In this document: in pieces, positions 38,643 through 45,755 of the stretch | How positions within the stretch are numbered: position 1 is the first letter of the stretch | Layout of the letters: every line of letters begins with the position of its first letter | Origin: Candidatus Izemoplasma sp. | GTDB taxonomy: Bacteria > Bacillota_I > Bacilli_A > Izemoplasmatales > Izemoplasmataceae | DNA length: 63,642 bases | Reading direction: 5' to 3' | Assembly: GCA_036172455.1 (NCBI GenBank) | Contig: JAXKVY010000006.1 | Span: 1 to 63,642, forward strand | Program-made: the position numbers and the translations under genes | Notes under the pieces: generated by a model | What the model was told of the DNA's origin: nothing | Seen by the model: the letters and a program-made list of their open reading frames with translations, nothing else | The model's database searches: none

Positions 38643-38939
38643 CACAACACCACCTAGTTTTTATATATACAACAATAACATAATTTTTTAAAAAAATATA
38701 GCCTGATATAAGAATTATTCAGTTAATTCGTATAGCAAATTATTTTTTTATTAATTATCTATAAAAGATAATACTATTATGCATCTATTATTGATCGCTT
38801 AGATAAAGGTAAAACCCTATTTATAGCAGTTTTGAATATATAGAACTATTATAATATACAGGCTTTATAAAAGCCTATATATATGTTATAATTGTTTGGA
38901 AAATAAACATATATAATGATATTAATAGAGGAGAAGATT
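38643..38939. other. Divergent intergenic region with promoter of the HydABC-like operon
   Basis: AT-rich, no gene. A plus-strand promoter is visible: TTTATA (38864-38869), 17 bases, TATAAT (38887-38892). The -35 box lies inside the small palindrome AGGCTTT-ATA-AAAGCCT (38860-38876), which could be an operator. It does not fit the Rex consensus. Nothing else can be supported. Confidence 0.55.
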
Positions 38940-39422
38940 ATGGGTAGAACTATTGAAATATCAAAAGAAAATGAGAGCGCGTTATTGAGCGCTATCGACC
39001 AACACATGAAAAACCCTGGTCCATTAATGCCAATACTGCACGATGCTCAACAAATATTCGGGTGTATCCCATTAGAAGTTCAAAAACTTATTTCACGAGA
39101 AACAGGTGTCACCATTGCTGAGATTAATGGTGTAGTTACATTCTATTCTAGTTTCTCACAAACACCAAAAGGAAAAGAAACTATCGGTGTTTGTTTAGGT
39201 ACACCATGTTATGTGCGTGGTGCACAAATCATACTTGATACAGTGAAAAAAGAACTTGGTATTGATGTGGGAGAAACCACAGAGGATGGAGAATTCTCAT
39301 TAGATGCTATTCGTTGCATTGGTACATGTGGTATGGCACCAGTTATGTCAATTGGTGAAGAAGTTATAGGCGAAATGTCAGTCGAAAAAGTGAAAAAAGT
39401 CTTAAAAGGTAGGCGAAAATAG
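38940..39422 (+). CDS. NuoE/HydC-like 24-kDa [2Fe-2S] subunit
   Basis: A 160-residue thioredoxin-like ferredoxin subunit: helical N-terminus with MPILHDAQQIFGCIP, then GVCLGTPCYVRGA (C-x4-C) near 88 and IRCIGTCGMAP (C-x3-C) near 125, the four ligands of one [2Fe-2S] cluster. In HydABC complexes this is HydC, next to the flavin subunit. The ATG at 38940 follows AGAGGAG. It is the first gene of the nine-gene operon. Confidence 0.92.
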   Translation: MGRTIEISKENESALLSAIDQHMKNPGPLMPILHDAQQIFGCIPLEVQKLISRETGVTIAEINGVVTFYSSFSQTPKGKETIGVCLGTPCYVRGAQIILDTVKKELGIDVGETTEDGEFSLDAIRCIGTCGMAPVMSIGEEVIGEMSVEKVKKVLKGRRK

Positions 39423-39812
39423 ATGGAATTGAATGCTGTATTAGACTTAATTGATGCAAAACAGTTCAACTTAGAGTGCCCACGATGCGTCAAAGAAATT
39501 AATTATGCGTTTGTTTGTGATTTAATGAGTGATGCATTGATGCTTTTAAAGCAAATGCCTAGTCACATAGGAGCGCACGGTGCCCTGGTTACAGGACTTG
39601 TTACCAATCAAGCATTACGTACAGCAGAAATACTTGATTTAGAAACAATCATCTTTGTACGTGGTAAAACACCAACGAAACAAGTTATTGAACTTGCAGA
39701 TGAACTGGGAATCACTTTAATCGGTACTGATTTAACTATGTACCGGACAAGTGGCTTATTATTCATGAACGGTGTGAAAAGTTATGAATCCGTGCTTGAA
39801 GAAAACCACTAA
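39423..39812 (+). CDS. DRTGG-like domain protein 1
   Basis: A 129-residue protein resembling the DRTGG-domain proteins found in hydrogenase operons of Clostridia and Thermoanaerobacter. The beta/alpha pattern VTGLVTNQALRTAEILDL then ETIIFVRGKTP then ADELGITLIGTDLTMYRTSGLL is characteristic, although the DRTGG string itself is not intact. Function unknown; DRTGG domains are often joined to regulators. The ATG is directly after the NuoE-like stop, with ribosome site AGGTAGG. Confidence 0.7.
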   Translation: MELNAVLDLIDAKQFNLECPRCVKEINYAFVCDLMSDALMLLKQMPSHIGAHGALVTGLVTNQALRTAEILDLETIIFVRGKTPTKQVIELADELGITLIGTDLTMYRTSGLLFMNGVKSYESVLEENH

Positions 39813-40254
39813 AAACGCCCGTATTCATAAAGAGTTTGTCATTGAGCGAAATGATATCGCTAATGCTGGTACTGTCGCAAGTACGACCAAACGTATACTA
39901 AAACTCGAAGGATTTCCGAGTCACTTTATCAAACGTGTTACAATTGGAGTTTATGAAGCTGAGATTAATGTTGTAATTCATTCTTATGGTGGAACAGTAA
40001 TATTCGATCTCAATGATGATCATGTTACGCTTACATTCGAAGATAAAGGCCCTGGTATTGAGGATATCGAACTTGCAAAAGCGGCAGGATTCTCAACAGC
40101 TAGTTCCTACGCAATTGAGAATGGCTTTGGTGCTGGAATGGGCTTGCCTAATATTGAAGCAGTCTCAGATGAGATGCACTTGACCTCATCGAAAGAAGGT
40201 ACAAAACTGTGTATGCGATTCGATATAGGAGATGATCACGTTGACAGTGAATGA
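39784..40254 (+). CDS. RsbW/anti-sigma-like ATP-binding protein
   Basis: A 156-residue GHKL ATPase-domain protein. VGVYEAEINVVIHSYGG-type N box (GVYEAEINVVIHSYGG near 55), FEDKGPGIED (G1) near 90 and GFGAGMGLPNIEAVSD (G2) near 118 are present; no phosphoacceptor domain. Such proteins act as serine kinases or anti-sigma factors and are common in this operon type. It overlaps the preceding gene by 29 bases; a TTG at 39796 is a possible alternative start. Confidence 0.82.
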   Translation: MNPCLKKTTKNARIHKEFVIERNDIANAGTVASTTKRILKLEGFPSHFIKRVTIGVYEAEINVVIHSYGGTVIFDLNDDHVTLTFEDKGPGIEDIELAKAAGFSTASSYAIENGFGAGMGLPNIEAVSDEMHLTSSKEGTKLCMRFDIGDDHVDSE

Positions 40255-40570
40255 CCTTAACAATCATAAGGCGTTAACCCTAGTTAATGAAGATAGTAAT
40301 GATACGCAAACAATTAATAAACTCTTTGCATCTGATTTGCTGAGTCATGTAATTGGCTATGCTGAAGAGCATGACGTCTTAATCACTGTATTAAATAACA
40401 TCAATGTTTTGGGTGTTGCGAGTTTACTTGATCTAAGCGCTGTAATTTTTACACACAACGCTAAGATTAAACCTGATATCATTACTCGCGCAAATGATTT
40501 GAATTTGTCACTCTTTATTACCCCTTTATCTACCGCAGATATTATTAAACAACTTGCGAGTTTGGAGTAA
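40232..40570 (+). CDS. DRTGG-like domain protein 2
   Basis: A 109-112 residue protein with the DRTGG-like fold: LFASDLLSHVIGYAEEHDVLITV, then INVLGVASLLDLSAVIFTHN and ANDLNLSLFITPLSTADIIKQL. It is distantly similar to the product of 39423-39812. The ATG at 40232 directly abuts GGAG; a TTG at 40241, nine bases from it, is the better-spaced start. Function unknown. Confidence 0.72.
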   Translation: MITLTVNDLNNHKALTLVNEDSNDTQTINKLFASDLLSHVIGYAEEHDVLITVLNNINVLGVASLLDLSAVIFTHNAKIKPDIITRANDLNLSLFITPLSTADIIKQLASLE

Positions 40571-40575
40571 TTAAA

Positions 40576-41286
40576 ATGAAATGTTATTATGACTTGCATA
40601 TTCATTCCGTACTATCACCTGATGGTGATGAATTTATGACACCAAATAACATTTTAAACATGGCAATGTTAAAAAATCTCGATTTTATCGCGATTACAGA
40701 TCATAATTGCTTACTACAACTCCAAACTGTCAAAAACATTGAAACATCGTATGATTTTATTTTTGTACCGGGTGTAGAAGTTACTGTGAAAGAAGGCTTT
40801 GACGTCCTATGTTACTTTCGTACATTCAATGATGCAGAGATATTTAATCAGTTTATTCAAGGGTATTTAACCGATACATTTACACACTTTACACCTGATG
40901 ACCAAATTATTACAGATATTTACGACAACCCTATCGGAACAGTCAAAAAAGGCTTATTAACATCAACGTTGCCCTACAAGGTACTCTATCGACAAGTGAA
41001 ATCACTTGATGGTATTGCACTCTTTGCGCACATCAATCGTCCGAGTAAGTCTGTCCTAAATAATTATTCACTTGACGACTATCTTTTTGACGGTATTGAA
41101 ATTGAACCACAACACAAAACAGCATTTTTAAAAAAATATCCCCAATATAAACAGTATATAACTCTCTCTAATTCTGATTCACATACTTTAATGTCGATTT
41201 CTGAACGTATTGAGTATTTAGAACTAGCAGAGAAATCAATAGATGCCTTCTTTGATTACTTTAAAGGGGGCACAAAAAATGAATGA
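40576..41286 (+). CDS. PHP-domain phosphoesterase-like protein
   Basis: A 236-residue PHP protein. Metal ligands are visible in order: DLHIHS (H-x-H) near residue 7, AITDHN near 40, FVPGVEVTV near 66, FAHINRP near 152 and SNSDSHT near 200. The family ranges from histidinol phosphatase to nucleotide phosphoesterases. It is a regular member of HydABC-linked operons, where its role is unknown. ATG follows GGAG. Confidence 0.88.
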   Translation: MKCYYDLHIHSVLSPDGDEFMTPNNILNMAMLKNLDFIAITDHNCLLQLQTVKNIETSYDFIFVPGVEVTVKEGFDVLCYFRTFNDAEIFNQFIQGYLTDTFTHFTPDDQIITDIYDNPIGTVKKGLLTSTLPYKVLYRQVKSLDGIALFAHINRPSKSVLNNYSLDDYLFDGIEIEPQHKTAFLKKYPQYKQYITLSNSDSHTLMSISERIEYLELAEKSIDAFFDYFKGGTKNE

Positions 41287-41833
41287 ACTTTCCTTGCATA
41301 TTTTAGATATTTGTGAAAACTCAATCAGTGCGAACGCATCACTCATTGAGATTACTATAGAAGAAAGTACAACGCAAAATACCTACACCATCACTATTAC
41401 TGATGATGGTCACGGGATGAATAAGAAAACACTCTCGCAAGTGTCTGACCCTTTTTTTACAACACGAACGACTCGTAAAGTGGGCCTCGGTATCTCACTA
41501 TTCAAACTCGCTTGCGAATTAACAGGGGGCACATTTCAAATCGATTCCATTGAAAAAGAAGGGACACTCATTAAAGCTGAGTTTGTACGAGATCATATCA
41601 ATCGCGCACCAGTTGGCGACATTGAAGAAACACTTACCGTCTTATTAATGAATGATGCTGGTATCGATATCAGATATGTGCATATGATTGATCATCAAAC
41701 CTATTACTTTGACTCTCGTGAAGTCAAACAAATACTCAATGATGTACCAATCACTGATTATAATGTCATTTTATGGATTAAAAACAATATAAAAGAAGGA
41801 CTACTTTCAATCCAAAAGGAGGAAACAAAATGA
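41279..41833 (+). CDS. GHKL ATP-binding protein (histidine-kinase-like)
   Basis: A 184-residue protein consisting of a histidine-kinase-type ATPase domain: N box ILDICENSISANA near residue 7, ITDDGHGM near 38 and RKVGLGISLFK near 60, then an alpha/beta tail with no phosphoacceptor histidine helix. The ATG at 41279 follows AAAGGGGG and overlaps the PHP stop. Known from hydrogenase operons; partner and target unknown. Confidence 0.84.
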   Translation: MNELSLHILDICENSISANASLIEITIEESTTQNTYTITITDDGHGMNKKTLSQVSDPFFTTRTTRKVGLGISLFKLACELTGGTFQIDSIEKEGTLIKAEFVRDHINRAPVGDIEETLTVLLMNDAGIDIRYVHMIDHQTYYFDSREVKQILNDVPITDYNVILWIKNNIKEGLLSIQKEETK

Positions 41834-42195
41834 AATCATTAGATGATTTAAAAAAGATTCGTGAGAAAGCGCAAAGAAAAGTTACAATGCGGGACAAGCA
41901 AGATGGTACACGTATCTTAGTAGGGATGGCAACATGCGGTATTAGCGCAGGTGCACGCCCTGTCATGAATAAATTTGTTGAGGAAATTGCTGAACGTGAT
42001 ATCGAAAATATCACCGTTACACCAGTCGGTTGTATTGGTGAATGCGCAATTGAACCAATTGTAGAGGTGCTTGAAGGCGACAAACGTACAACATATTGTA
42101 AAGTTGATGAAGACGTTGCCCAAAGAATTATAGACGAACATATACTCGGTGGTAAGATCGTTAAGGATAACATCATCGGTAAATTTAGAGTATAA
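41830..42195 (+). CDS. Thioredoxin-like [2Fe-2S] ferredoxin-type protein
   Basis: A 121-residue small protein typical of the segment between the ATPase and NuoF genes in HydABC operons. GMATCGISAGARPVMNKF near 33 and TPVGCIGECAIEPIVEV near 66 match the thioredoxin-like ferredoxin fold, but only three of the usual ligand cysteines are at standard places. ATG follows AAAGGAGG and overlaps the preceding stop (ATGA). Likely an electron carrier or structural subunit. Confidence 0.85.
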   Translation: MKSLDDLKKIREKAQRKVTMRDKQDGTRILVGMATCGISAGARPVMNKFVEEIAERDIENITVTPVGCIGECAIEPIVEVLEGDKRTTYCKVDEDVAQRIIDEHILGGKIVKDNIIGKFRV

Positions 42196-42206
42196 GGTGA
42201 TTACGA

Positions 42207-43997
42207 ATGTTAGAAAGAGCTCATGTTTTAATCTGTAGCGGATCAAACTGTATTTCTCGAGGTGCGCACACCTTTCGTGCTGAATTTGAAAAACACTTAG
42301 AGACTCACGGAATCCGCGATGAAATTAAAATTGTCAACACAGGGTGTGTTGGACTGTGTGAACAAGGTCCATTTGTTATTGTATACCCTGAAGGAGTCTT
42401 TTATGCCCAAGTTAAAGAAAAGGACATTAAAAAGATTGTTGATGAACATTTATACAAGGGACGCCTCGTTGAAGATTTAATCTTTGAAGAGACATTAACC
42501 GATAAAAAAGAAATAAAAGCTTTTGATGAAATTCGCTTTTATTCTAAACAAACACGTGTTGCCCTAAGAAACTGTGGTTTAATCAATCCCGACGATATTG
42601 AAGAGTATATCGCACGTAATGGATATCGCAGTTTAGGAAAAGTATTACTTGAAATGTCCCCAAAAGAGGTTATTCAAGAAATGCTACATTCTGGATTGCG
42701 TGGTCGTGGGGGTGGCGGTTTCCCAACTGGACGTAAATGGCAATTTGCATATGAAAACGATGCGGATCAAAAATATATTATATGTAACGCAGATGAAGGC
42801 GATCCAGGTGCCTTCATGGATCGGGCATTACTCGAAGGAGATCCTCATAGTATTTTAGAAGGGTTAATGATTGGTGGGTATGCGATTGGTGCAAACAAAG
42901 GATTTATCTATGTACGTATTGAGTACCCAACAGCCATTAAGAAATTACGTAATGCCATCAAACAAGCAAAAGATCTAGGATTACTAGGTGAAAATATATT
43001 TGGCACTGACTTTAGTTTTGATATCGAACTCCGCTTAGGAGCTGGTGCATTTGTATGTGGTGAAGAAACAGCATTAATTGCATCAATTGAAGGTGGACGA
43101 GGAATGTCTCGTAACAAACCACCATATCCTGCCGCAAAAGGACTATGGGGTAAACCAACCATCATTAACAATGTTGAAACATTAGCTAATATCCCTCAAG
43201 TCATCTTTAAAGGGGCAGATTGGTTCAGTAAAATTGGAACTGAGCATTCAAAAGGAACCAAAGTGTTTAGTTTAGGTGGAAATATTAAAAATGCTGGTTT
43301 AGTAGAAGTCCCTATGGGAACGACACTCCGTGAAGTTATTTATGAAATAGGTGGCGGAATTCCAAAGAATAAAGCTTTAAAGGCTATTCAAACAGGTGGA
43401 CCATCTGGCGGGGCTATTCCGGAAAGTATGATTGACCTATCAATCGAATATGAAACGCTTATCGAAGCTGGTTCAATGATGGGTTCAGGTGGAATGGTTG
43501 TTATCGATGAAGATGCTTGTCTTGTTGATATCTGTCGATTCTATTTAGAGTTTACGGTTGATGAATCATGTGGTAAATGTACCCCCTGTCGTGAAGGAAC
43601 GAAAAAAATGCTTGAGTTACTTAATGTTATTTCATCAGGTCATGGTACCTTAGAAGATTTAGATAAACTTGAATCTTTAGCACAAATGGTTAAAGGATCC
43701 TCGCTTTGTGGATTAGGACAATCGGCACCAAACCCTGTATTATCAATGTTAAATGGCTTTAGAGATGAATTTGAAGCACATGTTGTTGATAAAAAATGTC
43801 CAGGTGGTGTATGTAAACCACTCATTAACTTATTTATTACTGATGACTGTATTGGATGTACAAAATGTGCTCGTAACTGTCCAGTCGATTGTATCTCTGG
43901 TAGTGTTAAAGAATTACATGTTATCGATACAGAAGAATGCATCAAATGTGGTGTTTGTAAAAACGTCTGTCCTGTTGATGCAATCATTAGTGTATAG
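42207..43997 (+). CDS. NuoF/HydB-like NADH-binding flavoprotein
   Basis: A 596-residue multi-domain subunit. An N-terminal [2Fe-2S] domain (CSGSNC and GCVGLC near 11-51), then the FMN/NADH domain with GLRGRGGGGFPTGRKW near 165 and NADEGDPGAFMDR, SLBB domain, CGKCTPCREGTKK near 455 for a [4Fe-4S], and a C-terminal double ferredoxin (CIGCTKCARNCP, CIKCGVCKNVCP). This is HydB of electron-bifurcating HydABC complexes, with all cofactor sites present. It would exchange electrons between NAD(H), ferredoxin and the HydA-like subunit encoded 12 bases downstream. Confidence 0.95.
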   Translation: MLERAHVLICSGSNCISRGAHTFRAEFEKHLETHGIRDEIKIVNTGCVGLCEQGPFVIVYPEGVFYAQVKEKDIKKIVDEHLYKGRLVEDLIFEETLTDKKEIKAFDEIRFYSKQTRVALRNCGLINPDDIEEYIARNGYRSLGKVLLEMSPKEVIQEMLHSGLRGRGGGGFPTGRKWQFAYENDADQKYIICNADEGDPGAFMDRALLEGDPHSILEGLMIGGYAIGANKGFIYVRIEYPTAIKKLRNAIKQAKDLGLLGENIFGTDFSFDIELRLGAGAFVCGEETALIASIEGGRGMSRNKPPYPAAKGLWGKPTIINNVETLANIPQVIFKGADWFSKIGTEHSKGTKVFSLGGNIKNAGLVEVPMGTTLREVIYEIGGGIPKNKALKAIQTGGPSGGAIPESMIDLSIEYETLIEAGSMMGSGGMVVIDEDACLVDICRFYLEFTVDESCGKCTPCREGTKKMLELLNVISSGHGTLEDLDKLESLAQMVKGSSLCGLGQSAPNPVLSMLNGFRDEFEAHVVDKKCPGGVCKPLINLFITDDCIGCTKCARNCPVDCISGSVKELHVIDTEECIKCGVCKNVCPVDAIISV

Positions 43998-44009
43998 GAG
44001 GCTTACAAA

Positions 44010-45755
44010 ATGAAAAATGTTACGCTTACAATAAATGGTAAAGAAGTCACTGTACCTGAAAATTATACAGCTATGCAAGCGGCAGAATCAATTGGAATAA
44101 ACGTACCGAGACTCTGCTTCTTAAAAGATATTAATGAAACAAGTGCTTGTCGTATGTGTGTTGTCGAAGTTGAGGGCGCAAGAGGAGGCCTATCAAACTC
44201 TTGTGCATTAGCCATTTACGACGGGATGAAAATCACAACGAAAAATAAGAAAATCACTGATTCAGTTCGCCAAAACCTTGAATTATTAGCTAGTAACCAT
44301 ATCTTTGAATGTTGGGCATGTGAACGTGAACAATCGTGTGAATTTCTCGATTTAATGCGGCGTTACCAAGTTGAAAATCCTTATGGCGAAAGCACAGATT
44401 TCTTTAAAAAACCACGCCGTATCAATGATTCATCTAACACCATTGTATTAGATAGTGGAAAATGTATCTTATGCGGACGTTGTATTAATGCTTGTCACGA
44501 AAAGACAGGACTTGATATCTTAGACTTTAATGATCGTGGAAATGGAACCTATGTTGGCCCAGCAAACTTCCATGCGATGGAAGATAGCGGATGTATCAAT
44601 TGTGGTGCATGTATTACAGCATGTCCAGTCGCTGCGATTAAAGAACAATCTGAAATTGATGTTGTAATGGATGATTTAGAAGATCCTAATAAAACCGTGA
44701 TCGTTACCATTCATCCAGCCGTTACAGTAGCACTAGGTGAAGAGTTCGGTGCTCCAATTGGTATGAATGTTGAAAAGAAAATGTATACCTCATTAAAACA
44801 TGTTGGTGTCAATGACATTGTGGATCCAGATTTAGCGAATAAATTAACAAAAATCGAGCAAGCCAAAGAACTCATAAATCGTTTTGAACAAGATGGACCA
44901 TTACCAATGTTGACTAGTTGCTCTCATAGTTTCGTAAACTATGTCGAACAATATAAAACAGATTATGTACCGCATCTTACAAGTACAAAAACACCTCAAC
45001 AGATGGCTGGGGCAATCTCTAAACATTACTATGCAGAAAAGATTGGCTACGAAAAAGAGAATATCTCGTTCGTCTCAATTGTTCCATCAATTGCTAAAAA
45101 GGATGAAGCAAAACGTGATAACATGCAATTTGGCGGAATCAGAGATGTTGATCATGTCTTAACAACACGTGAGTATGGCCGTTTATTAAAACGAAAAGGA
45201 ATCAACTTATTTGATATAGAGGATAGTGAAGCCTTTGGTCGCTTAAGCGAGTTTGATGATACACCTTACTTTTTCACAGACGCAAAATCATCACTTCAAG
45301 GTACTTTAGATGCCGTAAATAGTTTACTAGAAAAAGATAAAGTTACGTTAGACTTTACGAAAGTTAGAAACATTGATAATGCCTATGAAGCAACATTTAC
45401 TTTGAATAATCAAGAAATACAAGTTGCTGCTGTTACCGGTATCTTGAATATTCAAGAGTTCCTAGAAAGAATTCATACTAGTCGTAAAAAATATCACTTA
45501 ATTGAGTTTGCGACACATGAATTTGGATGTGTTGATGAAGGTGGACAACCAATTCAACCCGCTAGAATTCAAGATTATGTAGATATTCAAGCAAAACGAA
45601 AAGCTGCCCTAAAAGAACAAGATATAGCTGATCGTACAATCTTTAATGATTATATTAAGAATCTATATGATGAATATCTTGAAGAACCCGGTAGTAAAAA
45701 AGCAGGTAAGTTACTTCATACTGCCTTCCATAAACAGACTTTCTATAATCAATAA
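44010..45755 (+). CDS. HydA-like protein lacking H-cluster ligands
   Basis: A 581-residue protein built like an [FeFe]-hydrogenase: N-terminal [2Fe-2S] (CFLKDINETSACRMC, later NSCA), the His-Cys3 [4Fe-4S] motif NHIFECWACEREQSC, and two [4Fe-4S] sites (CILCGRCINAC, CINCGACITAC). The hydrogenase domain is recognisable, but its active-site motifs are changed: TSCCP is TSCSH (C304, S305), MPC-x-x-K is VPSIAK (S360), and the C-x3-C of the last motif is H-EFG-C (H503, C507). Three of four H-cluster cysteines are gone and the usual STGA loop is replaced. It cannot carry a normal H-cluster. Last gene of the operon; its real partner reaction is unknown. Confidence 0.9.
   Translation: MKNVTLTINGKEVTVPENYTAMQAAESIGINVPRLCFLKDINETSACRMCVVEVEGARGGLSNSCALAIYDGMKITTKNKKITDSVRQNLELLASNHIFECWACEREQSCEFLDLMRRYQVENPYGESTDFFKKPRRINDSSNTIVLDSGKCILCGRCINACHEKTGLDILDFNDRGNGTYVGPANFHAMEDSGCINCGACITACPVAAIKEQSEIDVVMDDLEDPNKTVIVTIHPAVTVALGEEFGAPIGMNVEKKMYTSLKHVGVNDIVDPDLANKLTKIEQAKELINRFEQDGPLPMLTSCSHSFVNYVEQYKTDYVPHLTSTKTPQQMAGAISKHYYAEKIGYEKENISFVSIVPSIAKKDEAKRDNMQFGGIRDVDHVLTTREYGRLLKRKGINLFDIEDSEAFGRLSEFDDTPYFFTDAKSSLQGTLDAVNSLLEKDKVTLDFTKVRNIDNAYEATFTLNNQEIQVAAVTGILNIQEFLERIHTSRKKYHLIEFATHEFGCVDEGGQPIQPARIQDYVDIQAKRKAALKEQDIADRTIFNDYIKNLYDEYLEEPGSKKAGKLLHTAFHKQTFYNQ

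Follow-up and report, generated by a model that had tools for sequence, protein, structure and literature searches.

The group A3 HydABC hydrogenases, exemplified by A. woodii (7q4v/7q4w) and T. maritima, resemble the locus described here in the HydC-HydD-HydB-HydA operon, the relay clusters and the FMN/NAD(H) core; the A. woodii enzyme shares in addition the HydA fold and the TSC-S variant of the L1 motif. They differ from it at the active site, where the present HydA carries Ser and His at the positions of CpI C355 and C499, lacks FGATGG and has a changed Pro, Gly and Trp in L1. Nar1/NARF are eukaryotic HydA relatives that hold a [4Fe-4S] cluster by four cysteines at the H site, outside HydABC complexes. 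Like them, the present HydA has a hydrogenase fold without a full H-cluster; unlike them, it keeps a cysteine at one of the four ligand positions (C507) and so does not have their four-cysteine set.

Within the Bfu family, Types 1-3 work with another catalyst, namely NiFe-Bfu (A. mobile), Nfn-Bfu/Stn (Sporomusa ovata), Wor-Bfu and Fdh-Bfu (PMC9304861, PMC7483475). The conserved BfuBC core and a BfuA without H-cluster are common to these enzymes and the present locus. Their BfuA has however gained a domain or partner subunits, whereas the HydA studied here keeps a degenerate hydrogenase domain without any added domain and, in contrast to Types 2 and 3, its operon holds no new subunit. Trimeric FeFe-hydrogenases of Melainabacteria are mentioned in passing as having a HydA that lacks the L2/L3 motifs or has the L3 cysteine replaced (PMC3787301). 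H-cluster-free BfuA with other catalysts (PMC9304861) and degenerate HydA motifs (PMC3787301) are thus precedents already known; in the available part of the Melainabacteria report the degenerate HydA is not treated as a clade with its relay, core and relatives. In a literature search of partial coverage, no description was found of an H-cluster-less HydA clade in a HydABC operon or of its stepwise decay.

The operon and its HydB core

The Izemoplasmatales are a group of small, wall-less bacteria of the seafloor. The window, that is the whole stretch of 63,642 nucleotides analysed, makes up all of contig C6 in a genome of 1.69 Mb that is 99% complete. This genome is placed in the Izemoplasmatales, the named relatives at the locus being Izemoplasma/Mycoplasmatota MAGs. 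An operon at 38916-45755 on the forward strand encodes, in order, hydC, a DRTGG-like protein, a HATPase, a DRTGG protein, a PHP protein, a second HATPase, hydD, hydB and hydA (Table 1). Both the operon and its syntenic site, which in relatives follows tdk and precedes fumarase genes, are those of relatives with a canonical HydA.

Table 1. Features of the operon and of its HydA, by position in the window
Feature	Position	Strand	Evidence
hydC / bfuC, 168 aa, thioredoxin-like [2Fe-2S] subunit	38916..39422	+	PF01257 2.2e-46; C93, C98, C134, C138 kept
DRTGG-like small protein, 129 aa	39423..39812	+	operon comparison; weak NF011447 match; no Pfam match
anti-sigma/histidine-kinase-type ATPase domain protein, 156 aa	39784..40254	+	PF13581 2.4e-12
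DRTGG domain protein, 112 aa	40232..40570	+	PF07085 1.2e-7
PHP-domain protein, 236 aa	40576..41286	+	PF02811 7.1e-6
HATPase_c protein, 196 aa	41243..41833	+	PF02518 2.4e-14
hydD, 121 aa, small [2Fe-2S] thioredoxin-fold protein, four conserved Cys	41830..42195	+	weak PF01257
hydB / bfuB, 596 aa, NuoF-like FMN/NAD(H) subunit, clusters B1-B5	42207..43997	+	PF01512, PF10589, Fer4
hydA-like subunit (bfuA), 581 aa, without H-cluster	44010..45755	+	ORF, alignment, motif reading
HydA relay region, C36-C205 (first and last relay Cys), A1+A2+A3+A4 intact	44115..44624	+	33/33 N-terminal invariant sites kept
L1 motif T302-S-C304-S305-H306-S307-F308 (canonical orthologs: TSCSPGW)	44913..44933	+	alignment, codons
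S360 (tca), CpI C355 ligand position	45087..45089	+	alignment, codons
loop residues 415-428, FDDTPYFFTDAKSS in place of YTGAxxIFGATGGV	45252..45293	+	alignment
L3 motif: H503 (cat) = CpI C499; C507 (tgt) = CpI C503	45516..45530	+	alignment, codons

HydB contains the FMN domain and all ligand cysteines of clusters B1, B3, B4 and B5, as is characteristic of the BfuB of Bfu enzymes. Its B2 ligands (C438, H525, C531 and C536) match the His-Cys set published for A. mobile BfuB in both residue and number. HydC has the ligands of the one [2Fe-2S] cluster that characterizes BfuC, and C36, C68, C72 and C90 of HydD were invariant in 13 genomes. We infer that the HydBC(D) core would carry out NAD(H)/ferredoxin bifurcation. 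In the clade of relatives with a pocket-less HydA described below, HydB identity stayed at about 82% and no bifurcation ligand was lost, the exception being congener G003. Where estimable, dN/dS was about 0.01-0.12 up to and including hydB, and about 0.01-0.11 for hydB, hydC and hydD; the comparison was made with congeners G001 and G002, whose contigs end before hydA, and covers the operon up to hydB. Neither extra oxidoreductase subunit genes nor a partner gene were found in the window operon or in the operons of the five clade relatives, and no Pfam domain of the FAD/NADP kind that marks Nfn-Bfu/Stn was found in the window HydA.

Among the proteins encoded in the operon, the DRTGG-like one (DRTGG1) was the most conserved, with 85-90% identity in relatives and a dN of about 0.003-0.02 against congeners. 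The DRTGG, HATPase and PHP genes (39423-41833) accompany canonical and pocket-less HydA alike. They are missing from the operon of G003 (L074:7242-11647), where HydB is 494 aa long, is without the N-terminal [2Fe-2S] domain and has lost the B2 ligands (D438, Y525, T536) as well as those of B5. The ligand losses in G003 look like further decay rather than a stable new function.

H-cluster positions of the window HydA

The sequence-only reading had described a HydABC-type operon around 44010-45755 in which a HydA read from clean codons combines intact relay motifs with a rewritten S-T-G-A loop, and each of these points held. The operon encodes HydC, HydD, HydB and HydA. The hydA ORF is intact, with an ATG start, 581 aa and no frameshift, and its codons were read directly as tgc for C304, tct for S305, tca for S360, cat for H503 and tgt for C507. 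All relay ligands are present, comprising C36/47/50/65 for A1, H97/C101/C104/C110 for the His-Cys3 cluster A2 and C152/155/158/162/195/198/201/205 for A3/A4. In the alignment the STGAxxFGATGG loop is replaced by FDDTPYFFTDAKS.

Alignment to CpI and A. woodii HydA1 placed the CpI positions C300, C355, C499 and C503 at S305, S360, H503 and C507, while C304 occupies the position of CpI C299 and is retained. Proton transfer in CpI involves C299, and the adjacent C300 is a ligand of the H-cluster. C299 is listed as a CpI variant site in PDB titles. The claim that three of the four H-cluster cysteines are replaced is therefore right against CpI, but S305 had to be set aside as a lost ligand since the same Ser occurs in A. 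woodii HydA1 (7q4v, TSCSPGW) and in nearly all canonical orthologs and is common in published group A3 BfuA (PMC11406978). By alignment, the losses specific to the lineage are Cys to Ser at 360, Cys to His at 503, the YTGAxxIFGATGG loop and P306/G307/W308. Hidden ligand cysteines were sought across the catalytic domain (residues 206-581) and none was found beyond C304 and C507, the only cysteines of that region, which leaves no room for the four ligands elsewhere in the domain that would have spoken against the original claim. As the catalytic region holds two cysteines, a normal H-cluster in this protein is very unlikely. Where group A3 [FeFe]-hydrogenases have their Cys ligands, HydA presents S305, S360, H503 and C507, with no spare cysteines, and its scores were beneath the NCBIfam hydrogenase cut-offs (562 against 765 bits for NF040763 and 335 against 406 bits for TIGR02512). 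A frameshift or assembly artefact was rejected on account of the intact ORF and the ligand loss in five genomes (G011 on a single contig, G031 on two contigs).

The AlphaFold model of HydA had a mean pLDDT of 84.5, mostly at or above 90 across the catalytic domain, and its best match among solved structures was A. woodii HydA (7q4w_A) at a TM score of about 0.86. The hydrogenase fold is thus predicted to be retained despite the missing pocket ligands.

Pocket loss among relatives

Orthologs were searched for in 90 genomes of the order, giving matches at E<=1e-140 in 37 genomes. Most orthologs examined were canonical, and about 30 relatives encode a canonical HydA at this locus. In a tree of 51 HydA sequences the window HydA and those of G031, G011, G003, G008 and G025 formed one clade with 100/100 support, nested inside canonical HydA and with G089 as sister; G008 carries two HydA copies, one of them in this clade. 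The alignment with CpI and HydABC proteins and the tree, which had been proposed as checks, thus bore out the ligand loss and placed it within a canonical background. HydA of G025 lacks the loop but keeps all ligands of the subfamily. Ligand cysteines have been lost in the remaining five members, with different replacements in each: C/S/K/D/N at position 304, S/G/T/K/R at 360, H/G/gap/S/S at 503 and C/A/L/W/N at 507. The pattern is no one-off, since five lineages have lost ligands and a sixth has lost the loop. Degenerate motifs in trimeric hydrogenases had also been published for Melainabacteria, as given in the available part of that report (PMC3787301).

At the aligned positions no residue was both derived and common to all five ligand-less proteins, and a new pocket shared in the clade was rejected on these grounds. 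Since five lineages lost the ligands differently and a sixth lost the loop alone, the pocket appears to be decaying rather than redesigned. Five independent losses at the HydABC locus were also unsupported, as the five share their 100/100 clade with G025, and constraining them to one group was not rejected (p-AU 0.23). The series formed by G025, with ligands and without loop, and by the five others without ligands suggests that the loop was lost first and the cysteines afterwards. HydA of the sister G089 (L085:7720-9474) reads TSGCPGW, with the proton-transfer Cys replaced and a Cys at the C300 position, and has ISDVTGG in its loop; this motif state is possibly an early stage of pocket loss.

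In 32 canonical sequences 111 sites were invariant. The five ligand-less proteins keep, of these sites, 33/33 in the N-terminal relay, 35-46/70 in the catalytic domain and 4-5/8 in the C-terminal part. Terminal branches for the catalytic domain were 0.40-0.93 in the five against 0.05-0.22 in canonical proteins, and for the HydB core 0.07-0.18 against about 0.1-0.15, except in G003, these lengths being estimated on a fixed topology of which parts are weakly supported. In the alignments, relaxation was shown to be confined to the catalytic and C-terminal parts and to be specific to the clade. Given the 100/100 clade and the concentration of substitutions in the catalytic domain, the H-cluster loss is judged to be more than chance, and we consider it a real loss, at the level of a clade, in a HydABC-type complex of the Bfu family.

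The maturase genes and canonical HydA paralog that the sequence-only reading had asked after are all present in the genome. hydE, hydF and hydG lie at C2:392-397 kb and may serve other HydAs. Also encoded in the genome are two further HydABC sets, a canonical one of C3 type and one of C1 type, as well as an Rnf-linked HydA and a HydS-like protein with a PAS domain. C1- and C3-type HydAs were canonical in the related genomes examined, and canonical HydABC co-occurs in most genomes of the pocket-less clade. Loss of maturases as the cause was rejected, as hydF and hydG occur in 6/6 pocket-less genomes and hydE in the window genome. The C1-type hydA (L008:9267-11047, G000 C1), canonical in type, is split by a frameshift into ORFs of 299 and 300 aa, which may be either a real mutation or an assembly error. 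Maturases were detected in only 16-18/90 genomes of the order. HydAs with all H-cluster motifs occur in G037 (L040), G005 (L044), G030 (L045), G032 (L046) and G019 (L047), where the HydG/HydF search gave no HydG matches and no HydF above cut-off; of these genomes G037, for example, is 97% and G019 96% complete.

Candidate functions of the complex

The complex is probably a BfuABC/HydABC electron-transfer complex that is no longer a hydrogenase, in which HydA serves as relay or scaffold. Its HydBC(D) core would still bind NAD(H) and ferredoxin, with every ligand of the bifurcation-linked clusters kept, and HydA would keep the A1-A4 relay on a catalytic domain reduced to an H-cluster-free scaffold. 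Electrons would be exchanged between NAD(H) and ferredoxin. This could happen directly, but a route via a third partner that would dock on HydA and use the A3/A4 end of the relay is slightly more likely. A crossing at A3/A4 is favoured because these clusters are perfectly conserved beside a decaying pocket; they could also be kept for a folding or structural role only. The proposal that electrons move among NADH, ferredoxin and a partner without H2 thus stands as the likeliest role, its partner having no gene in the operon. We infer from sequence that H2 activity is absent, that the complex is active with NAD(H) and ferredoxin, and that a partner exists. The H-cluster loss was probably tolerated through redundancy, as these genomes encode further HydABC complexes of canonical type that take care of H2 turnover.

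The same redundancy could have left a decaying remnant, in which the H2 role is lost, hydA is on its way out and only residual NADH/ferredoxin leakage takes place. The lack of shared new pocket residues, the long terminal branches, the canonical HydABC paralogs and the additional loss of DRTGG genes and HydB B2/B5 ligands in G003 would all fit. We nevertheless regard this as unlikely, as five deeply separated lineages have no stops or frameshifts, all relay ligands are intact, HydB is about 82% identical and the rest of the operon has the low dN/dS given above. It is far less credible still that a non-standard H-cluster remains bound through Ser and His ligands and handles H2. A. woodii HydA1 is active with a Ser at the C300 position, and C304, K363 and C507 are still present; yet two more ligands and the pocket residues FGATGG, P306 and M501 are missing, clade relatives have no ligand cysteine at all and the scores are beneath the hydrogenase cut-offs.

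HydABC trimers assemble into oligomers, as in the T. maritima structure. The H-cluster-less HydA might therefore join the canonical HydA of another HydABC in a mixed oligomer with half-active or electron-sharing protomers, and canonical HydABC does co-occur in most clade genomes. The identity of only about 35% between the window HydA and the C3 HydA, and the full HydBCD set that accompanies the former, make such mixing rather improbable. We give equally little credence to a redox sensor or regulator that reports the NADH/ferredoxin state together with the DRTGG, ATPase and PHP gene products. These genes are retained in 5/6 pocket-less genomes, where the identity of DRTGG1 is about 89%, but they do not track H-cluster loss because they also stand beside canonical orthologs, and G003 does without them.

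A parallel case is found in the nuoF-Cterm/hydA/rnfCDGEAB operon present across the family (L009:8260-16171 in G000 C4; L087-L091, L096-L107). Six genomes encode a canonical Rnf-linked HydA. In twelve, this HydA lacks FGATGG and the proton-transfer Cys at the C299 position, the degenerate proteins mostly retaining their [4Fe-4S] cysteines. A tree of Rnf proteins, from which the HydA pocket was excluded, required four changes, at least three of them forced by starred branches, a count that cannot alone separate losses from gains. Between congeners the degenerate catalytic part had a dN/dS of about 0.05-0.1, and the degenerate Rnf-linked HydA is therefore no pseudogene. It is conceivable, though we hold it with some doubt, that Izemoplasmataceae repeatedly turned HydABC and Rnf-linked HydA into H2-independent electron-transfer machines, the HydABC form being a bifurcating NAD(H)/ferredoxin enzyme with a third substrate at the A3/A4 end of HydA. 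If true, the H-cluster would have been stripped, with relay and core retained, in two types of [FeFe]-hydrogenase complex.

The electron-transfer reading of the window operon would make it a case of stepwise catalyst loss with the bifurcating core retained and with intermediate stages in living relatives. This would favour a picture in which BfuBC acts as a core for attaching different third substrates. It would also constitute a natural experiment in which the third site of HydABC has been removed, bearing on a long-open question in electron bifurcation. For Izemoplasmatales-type bacteria, counts of hydA genes would overestimate H2 metabolism.
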